A DNA stretch of 36,369 nucleotides from a virus. Below, piece by piece: positions 534-33,452 of the stretch (positions are counted from its first letter, which is position 1; each line of letters begins with the position of its first letter). Made by a program: the position numbers and the translations under genes. The notes beneath the pieces were generated by a model that worked only from the letters and a program-made list of their open reading frames with translations, had not been told where the DNA came from and searched no databases. The stretch spans positions 1 through 36,369 of the IMG/VR virus record IMGVR_UViG_3300025435_000048. One strand, written 5' to 3'.

Positions 534-3500
534 TTATCTCCCGCCAGTGAAGTAACGACTCATTCCACGGAAACCATGAGTTTCAAAAAGCTTATCGATG
601 CGCGTTGGGTCCATGTTACCACTGATCATTTGCTTAAACAGCGCAGGATCATTTAGCATCACGTTCTCAATTGCCTTGGCCTCTGTCCCATAACGAGCGG
701 ATGGATTTTTCCGCTCAAAGTCAGCAGGCGCATTGACATAGCTATTACCGGAATCTTGCCCATAAAGATTAGCGTGGTTTGCTTGATCAATGCCGCGCTG
801 TGTCTGTGTCATTAGCAAAGAAGTCAATTGAGCGTATGCTTTTGGATTTTGGTTTGGATTTGCGTTAGCATTTGCCAATTCATCCAAAGCCCTGACGCTC
901 TCTTGCCCAGCACCAGATGCCTTCATAAGGCCTTGAAGCCTTGTAAGTTTTTCAGAAATTTGGGCCGGTGTATCATTGTCAAGAATATCTTGACCACCAA
1001 ATGCACGGGAAATCGTATTGGCTATTCCAGAAATTTGAGCGCGAGTTGTATACGCCGTACCCGGAGCATTCCAACCCTTTGCAGCGGACACATCAGCTAA
1101 GTTGCTGGCAAGTTCATGGACATTCTGTTGATTGTCGCGAGAAGCAGAGCCCACCTTGTCCACGTTATCAATGTAGACCTTGCTGCGCTCGATTGGGATC
1201 AATGCGCTTGGCCCACCGGCAATCGCTCCGGCCCCCTTCTGATTTCCTTCCGCAATAGCCGTAGCCGCAGAATTTTTATCATAGAAATCCGTTGGTGCCT
1301 GACCGATCGGTTCACCCTTTGGCGCAGGAGCCGTCATCGCTGCTGGCAATGGATTAGTGATTGTGTCTGAGCCCGGAGGCTTCGCTTGTGGCGGCTGGCC
1401 TGCGGCTGCTGGAGCGGCATTACCCGGACCGCCGGGAACCTTTCCAAGCAGTGGAATGTTCTCACCAGCATCGTGGCGGCGCTGATAGTCTGACGCCGGA
1501 ATGAAGCTGCCGTCTGCAAGCCACACAATATTGCCGTATGGCGTCTGCTGGAAGCTCTTCTGAAGGTTGGTAATGTCAGTGCCGCGGGTAAGCGCTTGCT
1601 GTTGTGCTGTCTGAGCGCCCGTAAGACCCCGGCTTGCAATATTGCTCTGCACGTCTTCATATGTCTTGGCACCGCCGCCGAGGCCTTGAAGAATGGCCGC
1701 GCCGAGATAGCGGCTATTTGAGCCAGCCATCGTGCCAATGCCTGACAGAAGCGGGATGAGGAACTGTTCGCTCATAAGAGTATCGCCAAGGGACTTCTGT
1801 CCATCCTTAGGGGGTTCTTGGGCCTGCGCTGGCCCTGCGCCAAACATGTTGCCTAATGTGCCAAGGATGCCATTATCCGCAGGCTTTGGACCACCATAGA
1901 TGGACGAGACATACTTTTGAGTTTCGGCAGGAAGATAATTAAGATAGCTGCCACCCTTGGTAGACGCCTTTTCCAATGCCAAATCAACATTGCCGGGGCC
2001 AGCATTATATGCAGCGCTGGCCAATGCAGGGTCTTGATATTTCTGGTATTGCGCCTTCAAATACGCCTTTCCAAGCGTCTGGTTATATTCTGGGTCGCTG
2101 GCAAGCTTTTCAGGGCTCCACTCGACGCCAGCAAGCTTTGCAGCCTCTGGCCCAGTGCTAGGCATAATCTGGCCAACGCCTACCGCACCCTTAGGAGAGG
2201 TCAGCGGTGTGCCATCGGCATTAAACTGCTTGCCACCGCTTTCTTGCTGGACATGCTTGGACCAGTATTTATTGACAAAGTCGTCTGCCGGGTCTGGAGC
2301 AGCATCAGCAACAACGCTGTCTGCTGGAGCAGCATTAGCAACAACGCCACCTGCTGGAGCATCGCCAACTCTGTCGCCATCAGCATGATGTTCACGATGC
2401 TCGGCAACGCCGCCATCTTTCAGCGCAAGAGCAAAAGGCCCAAGTGATGAAAGGAAGCTGCCGATGCCACTTGCTGCAGCTCCGACACCAGAACCAACAG
2501 CAGAAGCCATCGTTCCGAGGCCAGAAATCTCGCCGGGGATTGCTGCAATCTTGCTAAGGTCACCCAACGTGCTCGATGACTGCCCAGTAGGATTTTGAGC
2601 TGTCATGAGGCCATGCTGGCTTTTGTCTTTTTCGGTGTCCGAAACTACCTGCGACATCGGATCATCGGTCTGGTACGGATCGACACTGCCGCCGTCGGCA
2701 TAACCTACAACGCCGCCATGGGCCTGCCCTTGTGGCTGACCAAGGGTTTTTAACCACTCTAGGCCAGTTGCATTCTGGGCAGGGACGGCTGCTACAGCCG
2801 CTGCGCCAGTCTTTGGGTCAGCAGGAATTGCAGCTTGTGCAGGTGTAGCAGGATGGCCAATAATATCCTTGCGATAATCGTTTGCCTTTTTAATGGTATC
2901 GCCAATATTCATGGCACCCTGCACGTCACCCATAAGCGTGTCGCCCTGCTGCGCACGAGCAGGATTGGCAATGCCTAAATGAGCGACTGGGAGATTTGCC
3001 GCTGGGACAACGCCCTTGCCACCCGGCGTACTGGCAGGAGAACCGCCGTAAATGCCGCCTTTTGTGAAGGGGGCATAGGACTGCTGCTGCGACGCCAGAA
3101 TAGCCGATAGATCATATGGCGATACGACATCGCCGCCGTTAAAATAACCTTCTGCGGCATGCTGCGGGGCTACGACGCCGCCCTCAGAATTTGTGGCACC
3201 ACCTCGGGCCCATGCGCCATTAGAACGGTCGGATGCCTGCTGGCCGCCCATATCAGAAAAACCAAAGCTGCCATGCTCAACATTGTCATGCCCACCATGA
3301 TTTTCATTGGGAACAACGCCACCATTGACGGGAGGTAGTACCGATGGGTCTTGGCTTCCTTGGCCCATTTCACCCATCAGGGTCGATGCTGGATTAAGAT
3401 TTAAGCCACCAAACGCCCGATGCACTGGCTCCGAAGCCTTGTCGTAATCGACGGTCTTGTAGCCATGCGATTCGCCGACAGCCTCTGGGTGGATCTTTTC

Positions 3501-4388
3501 AACGTCCTGCGCCATGTAGCCGATATGCGTCTGCTCGGCGTCGTCGCCCTTGTACTTAAAGGTGTAGATTGGCAGACCATTCTTGGCCGTGCCAACCTGC
3601 TTGATGTCTTCCTTGAGCCGTGCATCGGAGAACCATGACTGCGGTCCCGTCGTAGTCGTGGTCGAGCCAGACAGTGCGCCAGTGCCCTCCGCGATGTTTG
3701 CGAGGAATTGCGCCACTTGGAATGGATAGGCCTGCTGCTGCTGGAATTGGTTGTACAGTGCCGACTGTCCAGCCTGCGTTGTCTGCTGGCCCAACGTACC
3801 GGCACCCATCATTGCCTGAGCGCCCTGCAGGCCTGCCTGCTGACCCTGAACGCCAAGTGCGCCGATCTGGCCTAGGCCCGTCTGATAGTTCTGTGCGGCG
3901 CTCTGGAAGCCTTGGCTTGCCATGTTGCCGAGCGTCTGGCCTTCTGCAAGGTTCTGCTGGTTCATCAAGGCAGCCTGCGCCACCTTGCCGCGATCACCAC
4001 CAAAGGCACCCTGCTGGATTGCCGTGCCCAGAAGCTGCTGCTGCTGCTGCTGGTTGACGTTATTCATTTGGGCTGCCGTTGAGCCCATGGCATTTTGCAG
4101 GAATGGGTTCATGTAACCCTGAACACCCTGCTGGAAACCTTCCGGCGTGTAGCCCTGCTCAGCGTAATTGATCGCAGGCTGGGCGGCATTGGCATATTGG
4201 TTTGTCTGTGCCGTTGCCGCGTTTTGCTCTTGGTTAAGGGGGGCCACAAATGCGCTTGCGTCAGTGCCGTATTGCTGGAAGGGCTGCGTGGCGGTTGCCT
4301 GAGCCTGAGTATTGACAGCGCTATACCGAGCCAACACCTCTGGTGGAATGGCTACGCTCGAAGTCGTTGTTCCAGTTTTACCGCCCAT
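534..4388 (-). CDS. large virion protein with S74-type domain and lytic transglycosylase (ejection protein candidate)
   Basis: 1284 residues from the ATG at 4388, which has a GGAG site eight bases upstream; the longer frame to 4451 would overlap the upstream gene without a better site. Residues 1-250 are Gln/Ala/Gly-rich. At 254-318 is an intramolecular chaperone/peptidase S74-like segment starting SDARLKEDI and containing GYMAQDVEKIHPEA. Residues 320-690 are low-complexity, with many GGVV, NGGDVV and DGGSV motifs. Residues 703-835 are an SLT-type lytic transglycosylase with the catalytic Glu in QQESGG (E716), then GVGQIMPST and AYNAGPG. The last 450 residues are unassigned. The family role is local peptidoglycan cleavage during DNA entry, as in T7 gp16 (functional analogy). 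The S74 segment in mid-chain is unusual and could make this a self-cleaving protein. Confidence 0.85.
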   Translation of the reverse strand: MGGKTGTTTSSVAIPPEVLARYSAVNTQAQATATQPFQQYGTDASAFVAPLNQEQNAATAQTNQYANAAQPAINYAEQGYTPEGFQQGVQGYMNPFLQNAMGSTAAQMNNVNQQQQQQLLGTAIQQGAFGGDRGKVAQAALMNQQNLAEGQTLGNMASQGFQSAAQNYQTGLGQIGALGVQGQQAGLQGAQAMMGAGTLGQQTTQAGQSALYNQFQQQQAYPFQVAQFLANIAEGTGALSGSTTTTTGPQSWFSDARLKEDIKQVGTAKNGLPIYTFKYKGDDAEQTHIGYMAQDVEKIHPEAVGESHGYKTVDYDKASEPVHRAFGGLNLNPASTLMGEMGQGSQDPSVLPPVNGGVVPNENHGGHDNVEHGSFGFSDMGGQQASDRSNGAWARGGATNSEGGVVAPQHAAEGYFNGGDVVSPYDLSAILASQQQSYAPFTKGGIYGGSPASTPGGKGVVPAANLPVAHLGIANPARAQQGDTLMGDVQGAMNIGDTIKKANDYRKDIIGHPATPAQAAIPADPKTGAAAVAAVPAQNATGLEWLKTLGQPQGQAHGGVVGYADGGSVDPYQTDDPMSQVVSDTEKDKSQHGLMTAQNPTGQSSSTLGDLSKIAAIPGEISGLGTMASAVGSGVGAAASGIGSFLSSLGPFALALKDGGVAEHREHHADGDRVGDAPAGGVVANAAPADSVVADAAPDPADDFVNKYWSKHVQQESGGKQFNADGTPLTSPKGAVGVGQIMPSTGPEAAKLAGVEWSPEKLASDPEYNQTLGKAYLKAQYQKYQDPALASAAYNAGPGNVDLALEKASTKGGSYLNYLPAETQKYVSSIYGGPKPADNGILGTLGNMFGAGPAQAQEPPKDGQKSLGDTLMSEQFLIPLLSGIGTMAGSNSRYLGAAILQGLGGGAKTYEDVQSNIASRGLTGAQTAQQQALTRGTDITNLQKSFQQTPYGNIVWLADGSFIPASDYQRRHDAGENIPLLGKVPGGPGNAAPAAAGQPPQAKPPGSDTITNPLPAAMTAPAPKGEPIGQAPTDFYDKNSAATAIAEGNQKGAGAIAGGPSALIPIERSKVYIDNVDKVGSASRDNQQNVHELASNLADVSAAKGWNAPGTAYTTRAQISGIANTISRAFGGQDILDNDTPAQISEKLTRLQGLMKASGAGQESVRALDELANANANPNQNPKAYAQLTSLLMTQTQRGIDQANHANLYGQDSGNSYVNAPADFERKNPSARYGTEAKAIENVMLNDPALFKQMISGNMDPTRIDKLFETHGFRGMSRYFTGGR

Positions 4389-4389
4389 G

Positions 4390-4866
4390 TTATTGCTCCG
4401 CGTGTCCGGTCTGGACGTTGTATAAGAAGAAAGCGCCAGCCGGTGGGCCAAACGAACGCTCGTATAGTTTTACTTTGGCTTCTGTACGATGATTTGACAG
4501 AACGCCAATAATCAATGGAAGGTTAAGCTCATCAGCAACCTTCTTTGAAAAATCACAAAGGCGACGCGCCCTACCGCCCTTTGCGCTTCGAAACTCGGGA
4601 TCGACAAAAATTGCCTTCTCTTCGAGCATCCAAGCATCCGAATACCACATCTGGCTCATTCGTAAAAGGACCGCGCCTTCAATCTTTTGGCCCGGCTCTC
4701 CGATAATTCCAACTAGCCCCTGCCACAGGTAAAGAGCAGGCTTGATCATGCCTAGCATCTTCTGTGGGTTAACGTCCTTGATGCCATTTTCTTCCCACGC
4801 ATCTAGCGCCAGCTTTAGCATGGCGGCTTCGTCGGCGGGTGTTCCTAATCTAATCGTTGGTTCCAT
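4390..4866 (-). CDS. GNAT-family N-acetyltransferase
   Basis: 158 residues. The pattern fits GNAT: an N-terminal strand and helix (IRLGTPADEAAMLKLA), a central beta region, then the acetyl-CoA loop region VDPEFRSAKGGRARRL followed by an amphipathic helix (CDFSKKVADEL). A C-terminal strand ends YERSFGPPAGAFFLY. Phage versions of this compact type are common among structural genes; the substrate is unknown. The ATG at 4866 follows an AGGGAC site. The stop is one base before the 1284-aa gene, and the upstream stop is one base before this ATG, so the three genes are translationally coupled. Confidence 0.8.
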   Translation of the reverse strand: MEPTIRLGTPADEAAMLKLALDAWEENGIKDVNPQKMLGMIKPALYLWQGLVGIIGEPGQKIEGAVLLRMSQMWYSDAWMLEEKAIFVDPEFRSAKGGRARRLCDFSKKVADELNLPLIIGVLSNHRTEAKVKLYERSFGPPAGAFFLYNVQTGHAEQ

Positions 4867-19572: not shown

Positions 19573-19956
19573 TTACTTGCCGTGCTCTTCTGGCTCATAC
19601 GAATGGTGACCCTTAGGCTCCATACCCTTGTGAGCAGACGACAGTGGGTTCATGTTTGAACCACCGGCTGCGCGACCACCCGACTTGCGTGGGGCGCGGT
19701 CCATACGATGCTCGGCCTTGTGGCCTTCGTGGTGACCGACGTGCTTCTTTACCTTGCCGCCAGCCTTACGCTTGTCGGCTTCCTTGACGACGTTAGAATT
19801 GCCGCCTTCATAGACGTCATGTGGAGCTTCGTCAGAAGCCCAATGACCTTCCATAGGCGATTCTACCTTGCCACCCTTCTTGTGCTCTGCACGAGGATGC
19901 TTGTGATGCACACCGGCTTCCATATGGCCGTGGTGATGTCCTTTGTGACCCTTCAT
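19573..19956 (-). CDS. His/Lys/Gly-rich protein with GG-basic motifs
   Basis: 127 residues, 20 of them His (MKGHKGHHHGHMEAGVHHKH at the start). It carries KKGGKV, KAGGKV and RKSGGRA, the same short motifs as in the 442-aa protein. No hydrophobic core segment is obvious, so it is probably disordered or metal-dependent. It lies just after a capsid-associated gene and before a terminator. A metal-binding or nucleic-acid-binding interior protein is inferred. No family recognised. Confidence 0.65.
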   Translation of the reverse strand: MKGHKGHHHGHMEAGVHHKHPRAEHKKGGKVESPMEGHWASDEAPHDVYEGGNSNVVKEADKRKAGGKVKKHVGHHEGHKAEHRMDRAPRKSGGRAAGGSNMNPLSSAHKGMEPKGHHSYEPEEHGK

Positions 19957-24278: not shown

Positions 24279-24671
24279 TTACCACACTGAATCTGGGTGC
24301 TTTACGCGCCCACGGATCACGACGTCGTCCATGAGACGGCAAGGCTGGCCATTAATGGCAACAGACCAACCATCAGATGGGCGAAACACGACCCAATCGC
24401 CGACATTGACGTCTGCGTCCTTGAACCAACGACCTGTATCGTCTTCAAAAGCAGACGGACCTTTCTTCACAACAAGGCCAACTTTGCCCTGATACTTGTC
24501 TTGCTCGGTCGTCTCGTCCGCCAAAATGATGCCGGACTTGGTTTTGTTGGGACGAATGTAGATTGCAACGAGGATGTTGTTGTTAAACACCTCAATCTCG
24601 TTGAGATCGCCAAGGCTTGCCAATAAATCTTCCTTAAAATTATCGGCGTGTGTCATCTTCATAGGAGGCAT
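24279..24671 (-). CDS. GroES-like co-chaperonin (Cpn10)
   Basis: 130 residues. Residues 30-70 read NNNILVAIYIRPNKTKSGII, then QGKVGLVVKKGP: the Cpn10 barrel with a mobile-loop segment (KTKSGIILADETTEQDKYQ). Residues 90-97 (VGDWVVFR) and the end (CRLMDDVVIRGRV) complete the family pattern. Phage GroES homologues such as T4 gp31 work with host GroEL to fold the major capsid protein. Its location directly before the scaffold supports that role here. Overlap with the upstream gene is TAATG. Confidence 0.85.
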   Translation of the reverse strand: MPPMKMTHADNFKEDLLASLGDLNEIEVFNNNILVAIYIRPNKTKSGIILADETTEQDKYQGKVGLVVKKGPSAFEDDTGRWFKDADVNVGDWVVFRPSDGWSVAINGQPCRLMDDVVIRGRVKHPDSVW

Positions 24672-24974: not shown

Positions 24975-26303
24975 TTATTTGCCGCGTGGCTTTAGGCCGT
25001 AGGCTTCGATTTTTTCGAGCCGTGCATTGCCGCCACCAGCGCCCGTATCGATTGGATAGCCGGTACGGCCACCAGACTTGCGAGGCATTGGGTAGCCCAT
25101 AGGCTGCTGCATCATTGGCTGGCCCATCATCGGCTGCTGCTGCATTGGCTGCATGCCACCGGCATTGCCTAACGACCCGCCGACCATTTTGCGGGTACGA
25201 CCACCAGTAGCGCGGCCCGGCATCTGCGGAGGCATCTGCGGAGGCATACCGCCCATAGGAGGTGCGCCGCCTGCCATCTGTGGAGGTGGCACAGGAACGC
25301 CCATAGGAGGCTTTGGTGGCATCACAGGAGCGTTAGGCATGCTGGCCTGATCCTGACCGCCACGAGGTGCCATCACAATGTTGATCGTGGTGGTGCCCTT
25401 GGTACGGCCACCCTTGGCGTGTGCCTTGCGACCGCCGACTTCGCCGGGGTTTTTTTCTTTGGAATTGCCGGAGAAAACGCCGCCACCTGCATACTTCATC
25501 GTGCGACCGCCGCTGCACATATGGCAGGTGCAATCCTTGTGATGCATGGTTTCTCCGCCGGACTTGCGACCGGTACGGGCCTCAGGCTTAACCATGCGCT
25601 TGATCAGCGCCTTGTCTTCGGCGACGTCTGGGTGCTTGATCTTACCGCCATGTTTACGGTTCTGCGGAAGCGACCGCTGGAAGGCAGCCTGCTGCTCATC
25701 AAATGCCTTGGCATTTTTAGCACGATCAGCATCAGAGCCCTTCATGGTGCTTTGCGATGCAGCCCGTGCGGCGGCTGCATTCTTCATCACGGTATCGTAA
25801 TCAGGCGTCGTTTGGCTTTGAGCACCAACTACGTTGCCATCGGCACCGTCATGGTGTTCGCGCTTCTTGGTCCGGCCACCCTTCTTCATGGGACCAGCGG
25901 CCTTGCCCATAGCCTTATTTTGGTCGGAAATAGGATTGTTGCCAATCATACCGCCGCCAAACTTGTGAACCTTGCCACCCTTCTTGAATGCGCCGTCATG
26001 CTTGATGCCTTCGCGATCTTCGTTGGCTTCGCGGACATTGCGGTTGATCAGGCTGTCAGCGGTCAGCGCACGGCCACCGGACTTGCGGGGCTTGCGGTCG
26101 GCGCGTGGAATAGGGTTATTGCCGATGACCTTACCACCCTTCTTGTACAGGCGCTTGGTAAGCGGACGTGCGCCGGTCTTCACACCTGCATTTTCAGGAG
26201 CCGATGGCGTCCACGTCGAGCTATCGACCTTGCTGTGTGGGTCGGTCTGCGTAAGGCGCTTGGCCTTGGACCTGCCACGGTCGTCTTTCTTGTATTCTTC
26301 CAT
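24975..26303 (-). CDS. Gly-Gly/basic repeat protein (interior virion candidate)
   Basis: 442 residues with at least ten copies of a short motif, for example KKGGKV, RKSGGRA, KKGGRT, RKHGGKI and AKGGRT. A phrase ending IGNNPI occurs twice (59-65 and 119-125). A Cys/His cluster HHKDCTCHMC lies at 254-263, possibly metal-binding. Residues 304-313 (TTINIVMAPR) form a short strand, then Pro/Met-rich spacers follow (KPPMGVPVPPPQM; QQQPMMGQPMMQQPMGYPM). The C-terminus ends with GNARLEKIEAYGLKPRGK. I recall similar unnamed proteins near portal genes of alphaproteobacterial phages. Very basic, likely disordered; DNA or capsid-lining binding is inferred. A GGAG site precedes the ATG. Confidence 0.7.
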   Translation of the reverse strand: MEEYKKDDRGRSKAKRLTQTDPHSKVDSSTWTPSAPENAGVKTGARPLTKRLYKKGGKVIGNNPIPRADRKPRKSGGRALTADSLINRNVREANEDREGIKHDGAFKKGGKVHKFGGGMIGNNPISDQNKAMGKAAGPMKKGGRTKKREHHDGADGNVVGAQSQTTPDYDTVMKNAAAARAASQSTMKGSDADRAKNAKAFDEQQAAFQRSLPQNRKHGGKIKHPDVAEDKALIKRMVKPEARTGRKSGGETMHHKDCTCHMCSGGRTMKYAGGGVFSGNSKEKNPGEVGGRKAHAKGGRTKGTTTINIVMAPRGGQDQASMPNAPVMPPKPPMGVPVPPPQMAGGAPPMGGMPPQMPPQMPGRATGGRTRKMVGGSLGNAGGMQPMQQQPMMGQPMMQQPMGYPMPRKSGGRTGYPIDTGAGGGNARLEKIEAYGLKPRGK

Positions 26304-26322: not shown

Positions 26323-29061
26323 TTATTGACGGCGTCCCGTCACGTTGCCTAAAGGGGGAACCGACGCAGGCAACGGTGCGGCGATCTTGGCCAGCACATG
26401 CTGGACAATTGCTGAATTGGTTGGCGCTCCATATTCAACATTTGCGTCTTTACCGTGCCAAATACTGCCCTCTACCTTGCCACCCTTCATATATGCACGA
26501 CGCAAAAAACCCCCGGTTGATAAACCGGAGGCTTTAGCATGTTCAATATCAGCAGGATTTAACCCAAAATTTTGGGCTTCATGCGGCTGAAGTGTTTTTA
26601 CTGCACCAAGTGTTCGTACGAACCGGTCGGAAGGACGTGGTGCATTATCTGGTCGTACTGCCCCTCGATCTCGTCCGGCGTCACCGTTTCCACGTCCCCC
26701 TTGTGGCGCAGCAATATCCGATCCAGCGCTCTGTTCAAGAGGTTTGCTTGTTGCGTGGACATCTGATTGACCAGTTCGTGGCCCAAAACCTTCACCGCCT
26801 TTTGAGACAAAGCGTCGTACTGCGTCTTGTCGATCTGCATCTGAACCTCTCCATTTCATAATGGCAAGTGAAGGTAATCCGTGACGTTGCTCGTCCCAAC
26901 CTGTTTTTGCCCACTCATGTTTCATATCAGCTAAATGCTGATCTCCCAAGGGTTTTTTATTCCCATCATCATCGTGCGTCACGTACTTTGGATCAAAAGG
27001 TACGCGACCAAGCTCTTCAAAACCAAAGTGTGAATAGAAATCAGGCAAGAAACCATTTGGATGGCGATCAGTTGGAACAGCATATGCATCCAAGGCTGTT
27101 GCGCCATGCTGCAGCGCCTTCAATACTACCGGTGCGCCTCCGATGCCTTTGGCACCGGGCTCATTGTTTACAACGCTGGTCAAGGCAGTTTCATTGTCAG
27201 TTAAATCAGGGTGATGGAAATCATAATCTTTAGCGTAATTTGTGCCGTGCTTAAGACCAAAGTACACTTCACCGTCTTTAAGTTTATATCCGGTAAATTT
27301 ACCGGCCTTCTTCATTTTGTTAATTTCTTCAGGGGTGTACTGGGTAAGTGTAGAGGATGAATCTGAATTACGAAGTGCACGAGCAAAATCAGCGGAACCA
27401 ACACCGCCTTGCTTGACGTTGGTATTGGTGTCTCCCCACTTATCATTGAAAGCATTAAGGGCTAACTGTGCTGCCTTGCTAGATTGAATGTCTTTTGGCG
27501 CATGCGGCAACATATCCGCAATTTCTTGCGTGATTGTGGTGACTGGCAAAGCCATTTCAAAGGCACGGCGGATATTTGGTGCCTTGCCTTTTGGTGTTAC
27601 CTTAGTTTTGTTTTCTTCTTTTTTCGCGTCAAACCACGTCTTGTGTAGGATGTCTGCAGATACAGGGTTAGCAAAGCGCCCCACAACGCGCCCACGGACG
27701 CCCCAATCATATGATGGGTGGATTGGTAGCCCTGATTTTGCCAGATTAACCAAAGAATCGCTTGAACCACGGGGCACTTCAAGCAGATACGACGCCGAAC
27801 CATATTGGTCACCGGCATGCTGTGGCGAAAGCGTATCACGACGAATTTTTTCAATGCTTGGTGCGCCAAGCTTTTCAGCTTTGGCTTGGCCAAGGATATC
27901 ATACATCTTCAAACGGCTTTCAAAGTTCATGTCTTTCATAAACTTTTGAATTTCAGGGTGATCAAAGCCGGGGAAATCCTGCAAAGATTGGTGCTTTGCA
28001 TCAATTTCACCTTTTTTATTTACCGCGCCACTACGAATTAAATCGTTTATTTTCGATACAGCATCGGGTGAAAGGCGACCATCACTCACATATGCCTGCA
28101 TCGTTTTGGCGACAGCATTTGACATCGATGCATTGGAAAGATGGCTATTGGGGTTCATTGCATGCACTGCAATGTAATCAAAATCTTTATTAAGCTTTGC
28201 AGTTCCTTTTCCCTTACCCTGCACAGCCCACCCTAAGCCATGCTTTTGATTTTCAGGAAGCAAAGGATAGCCGGGGCCGCCAAGCATAGGCTCAGGATTT
28301 TGAATTTTGCTGCTGTCAATGCCTGAATAATACCCACCGGCGCGGGTTAAATCAGCCAAAAGTGAACCAACTCGTTTACCCACAAGGTCTTGTGGGTTAA
28401 CAATTGGAACTTCCTCGTGGGAATTATAGCCAGATGGAACCCACCGCTCCCAAGGACGATCTTGTGGACCGGCGGCTTCAGAAGATACTAGCTGGCCTTT
28501 TTGAAATGGGCCAAATGGTTGCTTGTATTGTTTTTGACCTGTTACCGCACCCTTTGTGGCATAGCCCTCAACGTCTCCGCCCTCGGCCTTAGTGATGTTG
28601 GGGTTTGATAACCCACGTTCAATTTCATCAGACATGGCTTTTAAAGCATTTAGCTTATGACCCATTGCATTACGGGCATGAAGCATAACTGGCAAATGTG
28701 GCTTACCCGTTTGCTTTGCAGCAGCCAAGCGATGATGACCATTTGAAAGCATAACACTAGGATCATGCTCATCATTATTTCGGTTATAGCGAAATGCTGT
28801 GGCTTCAACAGGTTCGGAAAAATCCATATTACGAGCAACATCGTCACTTACACGATGCGTTTCACCCGCCATACCAGAATGATCTATGGCATAAGTCGGA
28901 AGGTATTTTATCTGAGGAATTGACCCATTGTATTTTTGATTTGGTTCAAACTCATCGCGCTTCGGATCACCAACAGGGATGACATCCCGACCACCCGCAG
29001 AACGGTGCAATCCACGGATCACATGCACTGACTGTGCCAACTTGCGGAGCGCATCATCCAT
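26323..29061 (-). CDS. polyvalent-like multidomain protein (ParB-like, GNAT-like)
   Basis: 912 residues. Residues about 50-128 resemble the ParB/sulfiredoxin fold: IKYLPTYAIDHSGMAGETHR and SNGHHRLAAAKQTGKPHLPV. Residues 158-175 carry KAEGGDVEGYATKG. Residues 270-500 hold an unassigned domain (HGLGWAVQGKGKGTAKLNKD; FDYIAVHAMNPNSHLSNA). Residues 640-740 resemble a GNAT-type domain of phage polyvalent and MuF-linked proteins: GGAPVVLKALQHGATALDAY and LPDFYSHFGFEELGRVPFD. A C-terminal GG-basic motif (RRAYMKGGKVEG) follows. Polyvalent proteins are thought to be injected with phage DNA and to act against host defence; that is family knowledge applied by analogy. It overlaps the portal gene by eight bases. 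A+T-richer than the portal. Confidence 0.72.
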   Translation of the reverse strand: MDDALRKLAQSVHVIRGLHRSAGGRDVIPVGDPKRDEFEPNQKYNGSIPQIKYLPTYAIDHSGMAGETHRVSDDVARNMDFSEPVEATAFRYNRNNDEHDPSVMLSNGHHRLAAAKQTGKPHLPVMLHARNAMGHKLNALKAMSDEIERGLSNPNITKAEGGDVEGYATKGAVTGQKQYKQPFGPFQKGQLVSSEAAGPQDRPWERWVPSGYNSHEEVPIVNPQDLVGKRVGSLLADLTRAGGYYSGIDSSKIQNPEPMLGGPGYPLLPENQKHGLGWAVQGKGKGTAKLNKDFDYIAVHAMNPNSHLSNASMSNAVAKTMQAYVSDGRLSPDAVSKINDLIRSGAVNKKGEIDAKHQSLQDFPGFDHPEIQKFMKDMNFESRLKMYDILGQAKAEKLGAPSIEKIRRDTLSPQHAGDQYGSASYLLEVPRGSSDSLVNLAKSGLPIHPSYDWGVRGRVVGRFANPVSADILHKTWFDAKKEENKTKVTPKGKAPNIRRAFEMALPVTTITQEIADMLPHAPKDIQSSKAAQLALNAFNDKWGDTNTNVKQGGVGSADFARALRNSDSSSTLTQYTPEEINKMKKAGKFTGYKLKDGEVYFGLKHGTNYAKDYDFHHPDLTDNETALTSVVNNEPGAKGIGGAPVVLKALQHGATALDAYAVPTDRHPNGFLPDFYSHFGFEELGRVPFDPKYVTHDDDGNKKPLGDQHLADMKHEWAKTGWDEQRHGLPSLAIMKWRGSDADRQDAVRRFVSKGGEGFGPRTGQSDVHATSKPLEQSAGSDIAAPQGGRGNGDAGRDRGAVRPDNAPRPSDRFVRTLGAVKTLQPHEAQNFGLNPADIEHAKASGLSTGGFLRRAYMKGGKVEGSIWHGKDANVEYGAPTNSAIVQHVLAKIAAPLPASVPPLGNVTGRRQ
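26504..26531 (-). terminator. intragenic terminator-like hairpin
   Basis: On the minus strand CCUCCGGUU-UAUC-AACCGGGGG forms a 9-bp stem (one G-U), followed at once by six U. This is a textbook intrinsic terminator shape but lies inside the 912-aa gene, in the codons for SGLSTGGFLRR. It may attenuate read-through from the upstream terminase-portal operon, or be a coding coincidence. Confidence 0.5.
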
Positions 29062-31357
29062 TATTGGTGCCTCTTGTAATTGATGGGATCACGTTGCCGA
29101 GCAATTGATGCACGGCTGGGTCGCTTTCAGGGTGCACGGCGATGTTCTGCGCCAGATCAATCATCTGGATGCGCTCCTTTGCGATCATATCTGCCTGCTT
29201 TAACTCGGCGGTGACCTTATCGTTCTGTGCCTTCTGGGCCAGCTCGGCAGCCTTGATTTTGGTCTCGGCGATCTTGGCGTCGGCCAGCTTTTCCTTGATG
29301 ATCAGGTCAATGCCATCAACTTGCTTTTCGTGGTCAGACGGTGGCACGACACCACCGGCACCGAATGTCTTGTGGGCTTCCAATCCAGCCTTGCTGTTAT
29401 CAAGATGCAGTTGGGCACTGTCGAGCGCGACCTTGCCCTTGGCCAGCATGAGCTTGGTATCGCTGTCCTGCTTCTTGATCTGCAGCTCGGCCATCTTGGC
29501 CTGCGCCTCGGGGTTGCTTTGCTGGCCCATGGCCTCTGGGGGAACCATGAACTGCTCGGGATTTGACCAGCCTATGGACTGCAACGCCATGCGATCCACA
29601 GCAATCGGGTCATACATCGCAGGATTTGCGGCCTGCAATTGCTTCAGGGCCATAACCTTCATCATGCGCTGGGTCTGGCTGGCCGTGTTAGGATCGGCCT
29701 GTGGCACAAGGTCCACCTGATTGATGGCGCGGAGGAAGGTTTCCTCATCCCATTGCCGGGCTGGGCGCTTGTTTTGTTGCCAAAACGAATCAGGGTTTTC
29801 GCGGAAGCAGCGGACCAGCAGCTCGAACTCTTCCGACTGCGCGGTATGCATGCGCTTGTGAACGGCATTCAAAACCTTGGTTGCTTGATCGATCAGCGCA
29901 ATCGTGGTGCCCACCGGCGCATCTTGTTTGCCCTCGCCGACAGCCTGCTCGGCGGTGCCGCCGACACGCATGCCGGTGGTATTGATGCTATCCACAAGGG
30001 TCATCAGGCCGGGGCCGACATCCTTGTAGGGAAGCGGCATAACGGCGTCCGAGATCGGAGCGCCGCCGGTCTTGATCAAGGCACCACCGCCGGGAGGAAT
30101 GCGGAAGATGTTCGTGTTCTGCCGCGCACCCGCATCGGAATACAGGAAGCCGGGGAAGTTGGCGTACATGCCAGCATCGAGCATTTCGCGCCATGCGGCG
30201 GTCAATGCATTGGTCGTGTTGCCTAAGATGTGCAGGAGACCCAGATCATAAAACCCCAGCCCCGGTATGAAGGTGTACTTAACAAACGTCTGCCGAGGCT
30301 CCGGCAAATCCTTGGTATCCTCATCATAATTCCTGACAATGCTTAGAATTTCTCGCGACGACACGTCGATGGTCACGCGGTAGGGGATCTCCAGACCGGT
30401 TTGCTTGCCGTTGCGGCGATGCTCAAATGCTGCGATTTCCAATTCGCAATAGCACTCATAGATTTCGCGGTCACGATCTTCGGGATCGTTCTCGTTCTCG
30501 CTGATACCCTGCTGCGCCTTCTTCTCGCGCTGCGCGGCGTCGAGCTTGGCCTGCTTTGCGTTCGAAAGTTCCACATCGCTATAAACGCCAAGGATTTGCA
30601 TCCGCTTGACGGTCGATGGCTTCATGTAGATGCGATGGGTTACGCGTGTCGAGTTGTAGAGGTCGGTGGCGCTGTTGTTGACGATGAGGTCGTCGGCGTC
30701 GATGCTTTCGCTAACTGGACGGTTGCGAAGGGGACAGAAATATACCTTCTTGAACGCCGTCCCGCCAAAGCCCAACATGAGGAGCATTCGGTCGGTATCA
30801 GGGTAATACTCTCGGGCAGTGGCCGTGAGGTAATGGTTGAGGTCGTTCTCAAGGTCATTGGCCAACTCGTCGGAAGCATCGTTCGCGTTGTTGTTGTCCT
30901 CGCGGATTTTTACGGGGCCATCCGTAGGCAATAGCTCCGACCGGGCATTGGCTTGAAAGCGTAGCACCGCCTCGAGCAGGAGCGGGTGCCGAACGCGGGA
31001 CATACCCTCAACGGGCGCTCCGTCAGCGGCACCGGCGAGGCCCGGAATTTCAACCTTGAGGCCCAGAAGCTTAATGCCCTGAGCGCGGTCCTCGATCCAT
31101 TCCTGACGCGACTTAAGATCACCCTCAATACCCTTCATCAGTTCTTCGGCGATGCGGGTCAGTTCGTCCTTCGAGATATCCTCGACGATGTTGTCGAACC
31201 AGCCTTCTCGCGTTGGCTTCTCAGCCTTCTCTAGCGGCGACCCGTCCATCGTAAACTCTATGGAGCCGTCAGGAAGCTGGATGGACATGATGTTGCCATG
31301 CTCGTCCATCTCCGTGGTCGGCGCGTCTTCCTGAATTTCAATCTCAAAGTCTTCCAT
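29054..31357 (-). CDS. portal protein, SU10/P22-like
   Basis: 767 residues from the ATG at 31357, which has AGGA five bases upstream; ATGs at 31363 and 31375 lie too close to or within the upstream stop. Typical portal features are RVRHPLLLEAVLRFQANARS, REYYPDTDRMLLMLGFGGTA, AADGAPVEGMSR and, in the middle, NTTNALTAAWREMLDAGMYA and RQNTNIFRIPPGGGALIKTG. The C-terminus is a long coiled coil (AELQIKKQDSDTKLMLAKGK; KIAETKIKAAELAQKAQNDK), like the barrel of P22-type portals. It contains one FGAGGVVPP motif. The portal is the dodecameric DNA channel at the head vertex. Confidence 0.88.
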   Translation of the reverse strand: MEDFEIEIQEDAPTTEMDEHGNIMSIQLPDGSIEFTMDGSPLEKAEKPTREGWFDNIVEDISKDELTRIAEELMKGIEGDLKSRQEWIEDRAQGIKLLGLKVEIPGLAGAADGAPVEGMSRVRHPLLLEAVLRFQANARSELLPTDGPVKIREDNNNANDASDELANDLENDLNHYLTATAREYYPDTDRMLLMLGFGGTAFKKVYFCPLRNRPVSESIDADDLIVNNSATDLYNSTRVTHRIYMKPSTVKRMQILGVYSDVELSNAKQAKLDAAQREKKAQQGISENENDPEDRDREIYECYCELEIAAFEHRRNGKQTGLEIPYRVTIDVSSREILSIVRNYDEDTKDLPEPRQTFVKYTFIPGLGFYDLGLLHILGNTTNALTAAWREMLDAGMYANFPGFLYSDAGARQNTNIFRIPPGGGALIKTGGAPISDAVMPLPYKDVGPGLMTLVDSINTTGMRVGGTAEQAVGEGKQDAPVGTTIALIDQATKVLNAVHKRMHTAQSEEFELLVRCFRENPDSFWQQNKRPARQWDEETFLRAINQVDLVPQADPNTASQTQRMMKVMALKQLQAANPAMYDPIAVDRMALQSIGWSNPEQFMVPPEAMGQQSNPEAQAKMAELQIKKQDSDTKLMLAKGKVALDSAQLHLDNSKAGLEAHKTFGAGGVVPPSDHEKQVDGIDLIIKEKLADAKIAETKIKAAELAQKAQNDKVTAELKQADMIAKERIQMIDLAQNIAVHPESDPAVHQLLGNVIPSITRGTNNG

Positions 31358-31364
31358 GATCATC

Positions 31365-31616
31365 CTATGCCGCAACGGCTACTGGAGTGCCGCCATCGGG
31401 GGCGGTGGGCAGGTTTGAAGGCGGGATAACCGCAGGCTTGCAGCCCAGCAAACCATATCCATCGGCGTAGGCTTGGGCGCTTTCGGCGCTGTTGAACTTC
31501 TCGACGTCAATAATTTGACGCGTCCAACGGTGGGTCTGCATCCACTTGCCCTTGATCTCTTTGTTGGGGGCAACCCAGACATCCCTGTGTACCTTCAGCC
31601 CGTAGCAAACGTCCAT
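31365..31616 (-). CDS. small hypothetical protein between large terminase and portal
   Basis: 83 residues from the ATG at 31616, one base after the TGA of the large terminase, with GGGGT upstream. A longer frame to 31673 would sit inside the terminase. Residues KVHRDVWVAPNKEIKGKWMQ and IIDVEKFNSAESAQAYADGY suggest a small alpha/beta domain; the C-terminus is Pro/Ala-rich. No family recognised. Position suggests an accessory in packaging or portal assembly. Confidence 0.65.
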   Translation of the reverse strand: MDVCYGLKVHRDVWVAPNKEIKGKWMQTHRWTRQIIDVEKFNSAESAQAYADGYGLLGCKPAVIPPSNLPTAPDGGTPVAVAA

Positions 31617-31617
31617 G

Positions 31618-33246
31618 TCATACCCCGTAAAGCGGTTCCGGTGGACGCCCATCGTGCTGACGGGCATCCTCATATGCCTGCGACACCTCGTCTGTCCTGA
31701 GGATGAACCCAGAACGGCGCAAGTAGCGCATAGCCATCGAAACTGTATCTACTAAATCATCGTGCTTGGCCTTCGGGAAGCGCATGCACTGGCTGATCAC
31801 CTCATCTGCCCACGCTTTGTCGGGGCAGTAGACCAGCCCTTCCTCGAACAGATGTTGCACCGAATAGAGACGGGCCATCTTGTCGATAGAGCCGGGGTCT
31901 TCGAGTTGGACGCCGAAATCCCTCCCTGCATACATCCTTCTTAGCTCTCTGGCAACTGGCATACCCACAGACTTGTTTTCGATGAGAAGCTTGGACACCT
32001 TCCACTTCTGGCAGCTTTCGCTGACCTTGGCTATCAGGTCGGGCATCTCGAGGTGTTCCTGCCAAGCATGGATCAGCATGATCCGAGGCGGAACTTCCTT
32101 CTCGTCGTATGTACGTACAATGTGGTAGCCGTTCTTGCCCAGCATGCGAGTGGCATGGGTCTTGGGGTCATCCGTCCAGATGCCCCAGACGGTCATGGCC
32201 GATGGATCGTTCTCGGTCTTCTGGGTGTAGGCGGTGTCCAGCGATCCGATGATGTAATCGAACGGCGGGAACTTGGGGTCGTCCCACAACTGCCAGTGCT
32301 TCCGCTTGATAATACCGCCGTCTTCCGGTGTAGGCTGCTGCTGGAATTGGCCGGACGCGGCGTAGGTGCCCATGATCTTCTTGTCGCGTTCCACCACGAA
32401 CTTGGGGAACCGGTTCGGAAACATCAGCTCCCCTTTGACGGTGCGGGGGTCTTGCCATCCCAGCATCGTGGGTGCCGCGCGGTCGGGGTCGTACTCCATC
32501 GGGATCATGATGTGGTCGTAGCCCATCTGCTTCTCGATGATGATGCCGGACACGTCTTCTTCGTGCAGGCGCTGCATGATCACCACGATGGCCGACTTGT
32601 CGGGGTTGTTGAGGCGGGTGGGGATGGCGCGTTCAAAGGTCTCGGTGACCGTCTGGCGCTCGGCCTCGGAGTTGGCGCTGTTGACGCTATGCGGGTCATC
32701 GATGATGACGCGGTCGCCGCGCGATCCGGTGATTGAGGTCATGGCGATAGCCTGCCGGAAACCGCTGGCTGTTGTTTCAAACTTGGTCTTGGCATTCTGG
32801 TCGCCGGTCAACGTGACGCGGTCGCCCCAGCGTTCCTGATACCATTCAGACTGGATCAGCCGCCGCATCTTGGTGCTGTCGCGGATGGCGAGGTCCACAT
32901 TGTGGGAGGCGCAGACATAGCGCAGGTAGGCCATGTCACGCGGCCCCCATTCCCACGAGGGCCACAGCACGTTGCAGAGCAGAGACTTCATCGCGCCCGG
33001 CGGGACATTGATCAGTAAACGGGCGTAATATCGCTCATCGTCGATCATCATCTCGTCGGTGATGGCGGTCAGGTGCTCGGCGATGGCGTCGATGTGCCAG
33101 TTGTGCTTGTATTCTTGCCCGGGCTCGATGACGTGCCAAGCCTGCTTGATGTACTCGACGAACGAGAGTTCGCACATGCGCTTCTCGACAGCGAACCGCG
33201 AGGCGTCAAGGTTGATCTTCTGGCCGTCGAGCATCATGAAGGTCAT
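31618..33246 (-). CDS. terL: large terminase subunit (ATPase and nuclease)
   Basis: 542 residues from the ATG at 33246, coupled by ATGA to the DUF551 gene and served by a GAGG site; a longer frame starts with TTG at 33312. Walker A is VPPGAMKSL (81-89), Walker B is VIIDDP (180-185), and the motif III region is VVIMQRLHEED (221-231). The RNase H-like nuclease has D337 in GSLDTAY, an acidic residue in IENKSVG (about 423) and KHDDLVD (494-500). It pumps DNA into the head and cuts it. Full length, no missing key residue. Confidence 0.95.
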   Translation of the reverse strand: MTFMMLDGQKINLDASRFAVEKRMCELSFVEYIKQAWHVIEPGQEYKHNWHIDAIAEHLTAITDEMMIDDERYYARLLINVPPGAMKSLLCNVLWPSWEWGPRDMAYLRYVCASHNVDLAIRDSTKMRRLIQSEWYQERWGDRVTLTGDQNAKTKFETTASGFRQAIAMTSITGSRGDRVIIDDPHSVNSANSEAERQTVTETFERAIPTRLNNPDKSAIVVIMQRLHEEDVSGIIIEKQMGYDHIMIPMEYDPDRAAPTMLGWQDPRTVKGELMFPNRFPKFVVERDKKIMGTYAASGQFQQQPTPEDGGIIKRKHWQLWDDPKFPPFDYIIGSLDTAYTQKTENDPSAMTVWGIWTDDPKTHATRMLGKNGYHIVRTYDEKEVPPRIMLIHAWQEHLEMPDLIAKVSESCQKWKVSKLLIENKSVGMPVARELRRMYAGRDFGVQLEDPGSIDKMARLYSVQHLFEEGLVYCPDKAWADEVISQCMRFPKAKHDDLVDTVSMAMRYLRRSGFILRTDEVSQAYEDARQHDGRPPEPLYGV

Positions 33247-33452
33247 TGCGGTGGCCTCGGCAATGGCATCCAATGGGTGGGGTGAACTTGTCCTGTTTCC
33301 AAAACCATCCAATACAACTCTTTTGATGGCTCACCATATGGAGGTTCGTCGTAAGTGTGCCAACCTTCACCAATTACGATTCCACCTCCCTTTAAATACA
33401 AAAGAACCTCCGTATCCTTCGGCGCTGTTTCGATTGGTTGCCATTCAGTCAT
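33243..33452 (-). CDS. DUF551 protein, copy 2
   Basis: 69 residues from ATG 33452. It has the DUF551 signature at both ends: MTEWQPIETAPKDTEVLLY and VHPTHWMPLPRPP. The gene overlaps both neighbours by ATGA junctions. It is a divergent tandem copy of the next gene upstream. The family is common in phages, with no settled function. Confidence 0.85.
   Translation of the reverse strand: MTEWQPIETAPKDTEVLLYLKGGGIVIGEGWHTYDEPPYGEPSKELYWMVLETGQVHPTHWMPLPRPPQ

Follow-up and report, generated by a model that had tools for sequence, protein, structure and literature searches.

The window analysed here, from a freshwater phage, is an IMG/VR virus record, linear and 36,369 bases long. It specifies a 912 amino acid protein (P0001; 26323–29061, minus strand) which is rather likely to be a phage polyvalent protein, encoded between the portal gene and the gene of a basic KGG-motif protein in a slot whose cargo is exchanged, and a probable head cargo that would be loaded by tags and ejected. 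The protein is made of modules which have separate histories and are exchanged independently of one another.

Genome setting

P0001 is encoded by an intact open frame of 912 codons on the minus strand, with its ATG at 29061; the plus strand across 26323–29061 is full of stops. The head genes run leftwards in the order terminase large subunit (TerL; 31618–33312, minus strand; phrog_38, 2e-78; Terminase_6C), SU10-type portal (29054–31375, minus strand; phrog_1216, 6.6e-24; Pfam SU10_portal, PF23899, 2.3e-11), P0001, a basic GG-rich protein of 442 residues, a GroES-like co-chaperonin, several unassigned genes and the major head protein. The P0001 frame overlaps the 3' end of the portal gene, the anchor of the slot, by 8 bases. 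It is more than a chance frame, residues ~190–850 having relatives in 53 viral contigs at 36–67% identity. One relative of the unit formed by the middle and GNAT-like domains lies in a betaproteobacterial MAG contig, which is possibly misbinned. Searches of P0001 against Pfam and NCBIfam gave no match, even at E=10, while PHROGs gave two weak ones, to a DNA-binding family at residues 77–132 in the ParB part (phrog_21912) and to phrog_2563, of unknown function, at 624–688.

The GroES-like co-chaperonin (24279–24671, minus strand; phrog_3188, 2e-14) lies within the head gene cluster, and the head clusters of HTVC027P, DSL-LC04, CRP-902 and MW202675 likewise include an annotated co-chaperonin. 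Elsewhere in the window, a 1305-residue ORF (534–4451, minus strand) joins in one frame a virion structural region, a Peptidase_S74 (endosialidase chaperone) domain at 275–325 and an SLT transglycosylase domain at 735–834, an unusual fusion.

The slot behind the portal

A search that used the portal as bait yielded 80 loci; in these, as in the loci gathered before, the gene next behind the portal was examined. Pfam analysis of 38 slot proteins revealed ART-PolyVal in 13, DUF7178 in five, InPase and GNAT in two each, and LPD23, zeta toxin, SLT, amidase, M15, Hydrolase_2 and others in one each. The slot gene keeps short constant pieces while its body is exchanged, the bodies including ADP-ribosyltransferase, DUF7178, pyrophosphatase, zeta-toxin-like and cell-wall hydrolase domains and the unit of middle and GNAT-like domains found in P0001. 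The earlier note had likened P0001 to the polyvalent proteins and proposed it as an injected anti-defence factor. The likeness is borne out by the presence, in the same slot of relatives, of ART-PolyVal, InPase and LPD23, all domains defined for polyvalent proteins; the label "anti-defence" is too narrow for the evidence, as peptidoglycan hydrolases and effectors of other kinds also occur in the slot. Weak phiKZ_IP matches on four relatives (E 0.038) were not used as evidence.

Exchange also takes place within the protein. The middle and GNAT-like domains are kept together in those relatives whose sequence spans the whole region, and in 53 contigs the unit has N-terminal partners other than that of P0001. 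In loci L004–L008 the ParB part is 95% identical and the sequence diverges abruptly from residue ~174; in these close relatives the break falls exactly at the junction/linker peptide GGDVEGYATKGAV, with complete divergence right after it. This recurrent junction peptide, listed for P0001 as KAEGGDVEGYATKGAVT (residues 158–174; 28540–28590, minus strand), stands between modules in 8 distinct contexts, and in gp205 of Tunturiibacter phage Tunturi_5 the ParB domain sits behind ART. In marine phages with a different portal (L108–L138), whose TerL and portal were recognised from the sequence itself and not by family search, a protein with the unit of middle and GNAT-like domains lies directly upstream of a TerL-like gene and ends right after the unit.

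This last arrangement, with the gene wedged beside TerL among packaging genes, again places the unit in the packaging/head region, which speaks for the cargo reading. It would suit equally a head-assembly or DNA-packaging factor that does its work inside the cell making the phage, with no injection. The overlap of the P0001 and portal genes and the occurrence of the middle domain as solo genes near portals point the same way. We nevertheless regard such a role as unlikely: slot bodies are freely swapped for ART, zeta-toxin-like, pyrophosphatase and cell-wall hydrolase domains, and an essential assembly factor would therefore not be expected here. It is more improbable still that P0001 is a structural ejection-channel protein like the internal proteins of T7 and P22, helping DNA to cross the envelope. 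Some slot proteins do carry SLT, amidase or M15 domains, as ejection proteins do, but P0001 has no match to a peptidoglycan hydrolase domain in Pfam, NCBIfam or PHROGs, and the window possesses a separate large virion-type ORF containing SLT (534–4451). A polyvalent cargo protein is the reading that we prefer.

Domains of the 912-residue protein

The ParB/sulfiredoxin (Srx)-like part, the middle region without a nameable family and the GNAT-like domain, described in the earlier note as fused in one chain next to the portal, are indeed specified by one frame that overlaps the portal gene, and this description in three parts largely stands.

The N-terminal third contains a ParB/Srx box, "SNGHHRLAAAKQTGKPHLPV", within a domain at residues ~37–161 (28579–28953, minus strand; box GHHRLAAAKQTG at 108–119). 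The evidence that this domain belongs to the ParB/Srx superfamily is good but indirect, because its own sequence, searched alone, gave no match to solved ParB/Srx members and its AlphaFold2 model was poor (pLDDT 37). Support comes through relatives only. Residues 37–161 are 52% identical to a domain of Tunturi_5 gp205, which in turn matches human sulfiredoxin in the PDB along its whole length (E 0.004). A profile that combines the domain with two phage ParB domains of more remote kinship matches SbnI and the serine kinase SerK at 2e-5 to 3e-3, the value for SbnI being 2e-5, and one of the two added domains matches Spo0J (E 3e-4). Alignment of the P0001 part with phage ParB domains using hhalign gave E 1.7e-8, over the box only, and a deeper alignment search returned near-copies and just two far relatives. 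Sulfiredoxin enzymes need the catalytic Cys of their GCHR motif. In P0001 the motif reads GHHR (108–111), with His in place of this Cys, and the domain is therefore not a sulfiredoxin enzyme.

Tunturi_5 gp205 resembles P0001 in having the related ParB/Srx-like domain and a GNAT in one chain. It differs in belonging to a jumbo phage, in the ART modules (annotated ADP-ribosyltransferase) that precede ParB and the Pfam-recognised GNAT that follows, in having no middle domain, and in being encoded away from the portal gene.

The middle domain (residues ~219–545; 27427–28407, minus strand) is present in two alignments. Residues 195–850 were modelled with AlphaFold2 from an alignment of 34 relatives (mean pLDDT 84, pTM 0.84), and the pLDDT of the middle domain is mostly ~80–96. 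Pfam, NCBIfam and the PDB were all silent on it, in keeping with its earlier description, and yet it is found in other phages. Foldseek against BFVD matched it to ~17 uncharacterised phage proteins, down to E 3e-13, one full-length relative excepted, and by sequence it matches three further proteins: one that stands alone in phage C72C1, gp72 of Roseobacter phage CRP-902, and the product of the third gene in the MW202675 slot, in which an ART follows. Aligned with hhalign against an alignment of these three (C72C1, CRP-902 gp72 and MW202675 ORF3), it gave E 3.6e-12 over 233 columns. This is confirmation of an unnamed but widespread phage domain. CRP-902 gp72 and C72C1 CDS0023 are, like P0001, specified near the portal; unlike it they are solo proteins, of 436 and 468 amino acids respectively, without ParB or GNAT. 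Hits to Csm2, a ricin-like protein, ipgC and YjgF in PDB sequence searches were due to chance (E 0.17 or worse).

Across the middle domain, D237, R343, R383, H448 and Y451 are invariant in the five sequences aligned. Such polar residues suggest, without proving, an enzyme, and the domain is a good target in the search for a new activity, because it is widespread, unnamed, without a solved relative and in possession of an invariant polar residue set.

Two annotations may be mentioned here. In MW202675.1 (locus L148, 19024–21720) the annotation "type I restriction enzyme" has been given to a polyvalent protein in which the middle domain is followed by a C-terminal domain common to DarB-like and minor head phage families. 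In phage DSL-LC04 (locus L150, 5412–7889) a PcfJ-like protein immediately precedes the portal gene, and one of the BFVD matches of the middle domain is also named PcfJ-like.

The model of residues ~577–757 (26791–27333, minus strand) supports a GNAT fold. Its top Foldseek matches in the PDB are GNATs, the best being PA2271 and AAC(6')-Im (prob 0.94–0.96, E 0.015–0.09), and phrog_2563 is matched in 28/34 relatives. Motif A is represented by the invariant G636 and G639 and by FYxxFGFEExGR. In the acetyl-CoA loop, GAKG-I-G, the GxG/A half of the Q/R-x-x-G-x-G/A motif is present and G636 stands in place of Q/R; use of acetyl-CoA is uncertain because motif A is without this usual residue. Structure prediction, which had been put forward as a check of both folds, accordingly upheld the GNAT-like domain, all of whose best PDB matches are GNATs, but yielded for the ParB part only the poor model noted above.

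Constant tags, linker and tails

The first 24 residues of P0001, MDDALRKLAQSVHVIRGLHRSAGG (28990–29061, minus strand), constitute a tag that relatives carry on unrelated bodies. Across relatives this N-terminal helix tag is ~13–24 residues long, and a motif model from 49 non-redundant starts reads (M)x-D-A-L/I-R-L/I-A-K/R-x-V-K-P. The opposite end, NSAIVQHVLAKIAAPLPASVPPLGNVTGRRQ (residues 882–912; 26326–26418, minus strand), is a tail of type A. The strict N-terminal pattern with a following GG was found in 22/65 unique slot proteins against 0/220 upstream ORFs (Fisher 3e-16), a lower bound because this pattern misses P0001's own MDDALRKL form, and tails of type A (IVxxxLxKIxAPLPA...GRR) or B (HPAxxIPGIHIV...FTG) in 23/49 complete slot proteins against 0/220 (Fisher 5e-20), both Fisher values overstating the strength of the association because related phages were treated as independent and the redundancy filters remove close copies only. 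Resemblance of the C-termini to the N-terminal tag is moderate (12/41 versus 5/118) and arises in part via the RRAY linker.

Where the slot holds two genes, the first often ends in tail B and the second in tail A. In locus L013 (830–6336) the split leaves a first gene with the N-terminal tag and tail B and a second that ends in tail A and in which parts resembling ART and a methyltransferase were recognised by eye.

A linker tag, RRAYMKGGKVEGSIWH (residues 854–869; 26455–26502, minus strand), occurs in 14 distinct protein contexts, where it may precede, separate or follow modules that are unrelated to one another; twice among these, RRAYxKGGKVEGSIWH is the very start of a protein. Related motifs recur in the neighbouring genes. 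Directly after the slot, the 442-residue basic GG-rich protein (24975–26303, minus strand; 18% K+R), for which no Pfam or PHROG match was found, has repeated KKGGKV and RKSGGR motifs (RLYKKGGKVIGNNPI and GAFKKGGKVHKFGGG), and in many relatives, too, the slot is followed by a protein with a KGG motif. The frequency of KGG motifs per 10,000 residues is 0.29 upstream, against 5.9 for the first gene of the slot and 16.8 for the gene after it; basic proteins like the 24975–26303 product account for most of the excess in this last group. Motif scan and composition likewise identified a basic protein of 127 residues with KKGGKVE (19573–19956, minus strand).

Constant ends of this kind could be the borders of homologous recombination, cassettes being swapped between alike flanks, and not signals at all. 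The tags do lie at the slot borders, linker DNA is 72–81% identical between contexts, and close relatives break exactly at GGDVEGYATKGAV. We consider this explanation the less likely one, since the N-terminal tag is under selection and persists across diverged phages, so that recombination would not be the whole story. Among 10 DNA variants of the MDDALRKL form, pN/pS is 0.16, the protein being conserved while synonymous sites differ, which indicates purifying selection; the motif is kept in phages with portals only 62–78% identical. Moreover, tail B closes first genes whose end falls within a two-gene slot, and the RRAYxKGGKVEG linker also starts proteins. Recombination borders and signals may both be true together.

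The tags are regarded as candidate capsid-targeting signals. With more reserve, we put forward as a possibility that this portal group has a cargo-loading system, in which one slot behind the portal would hold interchangeable effectors, each marked by a common helix tag at one or both ends and by a KKGGKV linker. The basic protein next door, which has this linker as well, would act with the effectors as their common partner in head loading, and the middle domain would then be a new enzyme family. If this is true, a consensus tag on unrelated cargo would make loading directly testable and cargo recognisable by sequence in uncultured phages, and the tag could be a handle for delivering proteins to bacteria.

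Comparison with known systems

Polyvalent proteins have been proposed to be packed in the head and injected (Iyer et al. 2017, PMC5512222). They share with P0001 the union of several unrelated domains in a single chain, specified next to the virion genes of a phage with portal and terminase, and ParB/Srx, ART, InPase and GNAT domains recur in the slot. The P0001 gene lies beside the late virion genes for the portal, TerL and major head protein, and its slot draws on, and recombines with, the catalogued pool of domains: ART-PolyVal, InPase and LPD23 occur in the slot, and the ParB domain is shared with an ART protein. In contrast, the middle domain matches no Pfam model, the LPD models in Pfam included, and no HEXXH zincin peptidase, as seen in many polyvalent proteins, is visible in P0001. 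Constant end-tags common to unrelated cargo were not found described in the sections of PMC5512222 consulted. Within the open-access PMC papers, the tag consensus across unrelated cargo, the unnamed middle domain and the motif that the next gene has in common with the slot seem to be new, earlier notice being possible.

For the packaging, injection, catalysis and targets of P0001 we infer the following course. Synthesis would most likely take place late in infection, the constant end-tags would bring the protein into the prohead, and it would leave the head together with the first DNA. Once inside the next cell, the GNAT domain would acylate a host or defence protein; the ParB/Srx-like domain would act in parallel, by hydrolysis or binding of nucleotides or DNA, as would the middle domain, a probable enzyme.

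For few kinds of such varied cargo, namely the T4 internal proteins and P1 DarB, is it established how they are recognised when the head is packed. The internal proteins IPI, IPII and IPIII of T4 have a packaging motif and are injected, and some act on host defences (PMC9391042). The likeness to P0001 lies in a targeting peptide on a payload; the slot payloads differ in being large and multidomain, with C-terminal tails and internal linkers, and no prohead-protease cleavage site was identified in them. In phage P1, 30 residues from the N-terminus of DarB are enough to direct a reporter to the capsid, and DdrB is present in the virion (PMC9024508). These large or ParB-containing virion proteins are likened to P0001 by its presumed role, not by sequence. 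A short conserved N-terminal peptide common to unrelated head-region cargo, a feature of targeting sequences of the T4 and P1 type, is present here. The authors of the P1 study reported no consensus among the Dar N-termini (PMC9024508), whereas in the P0001 group a consensus exists.
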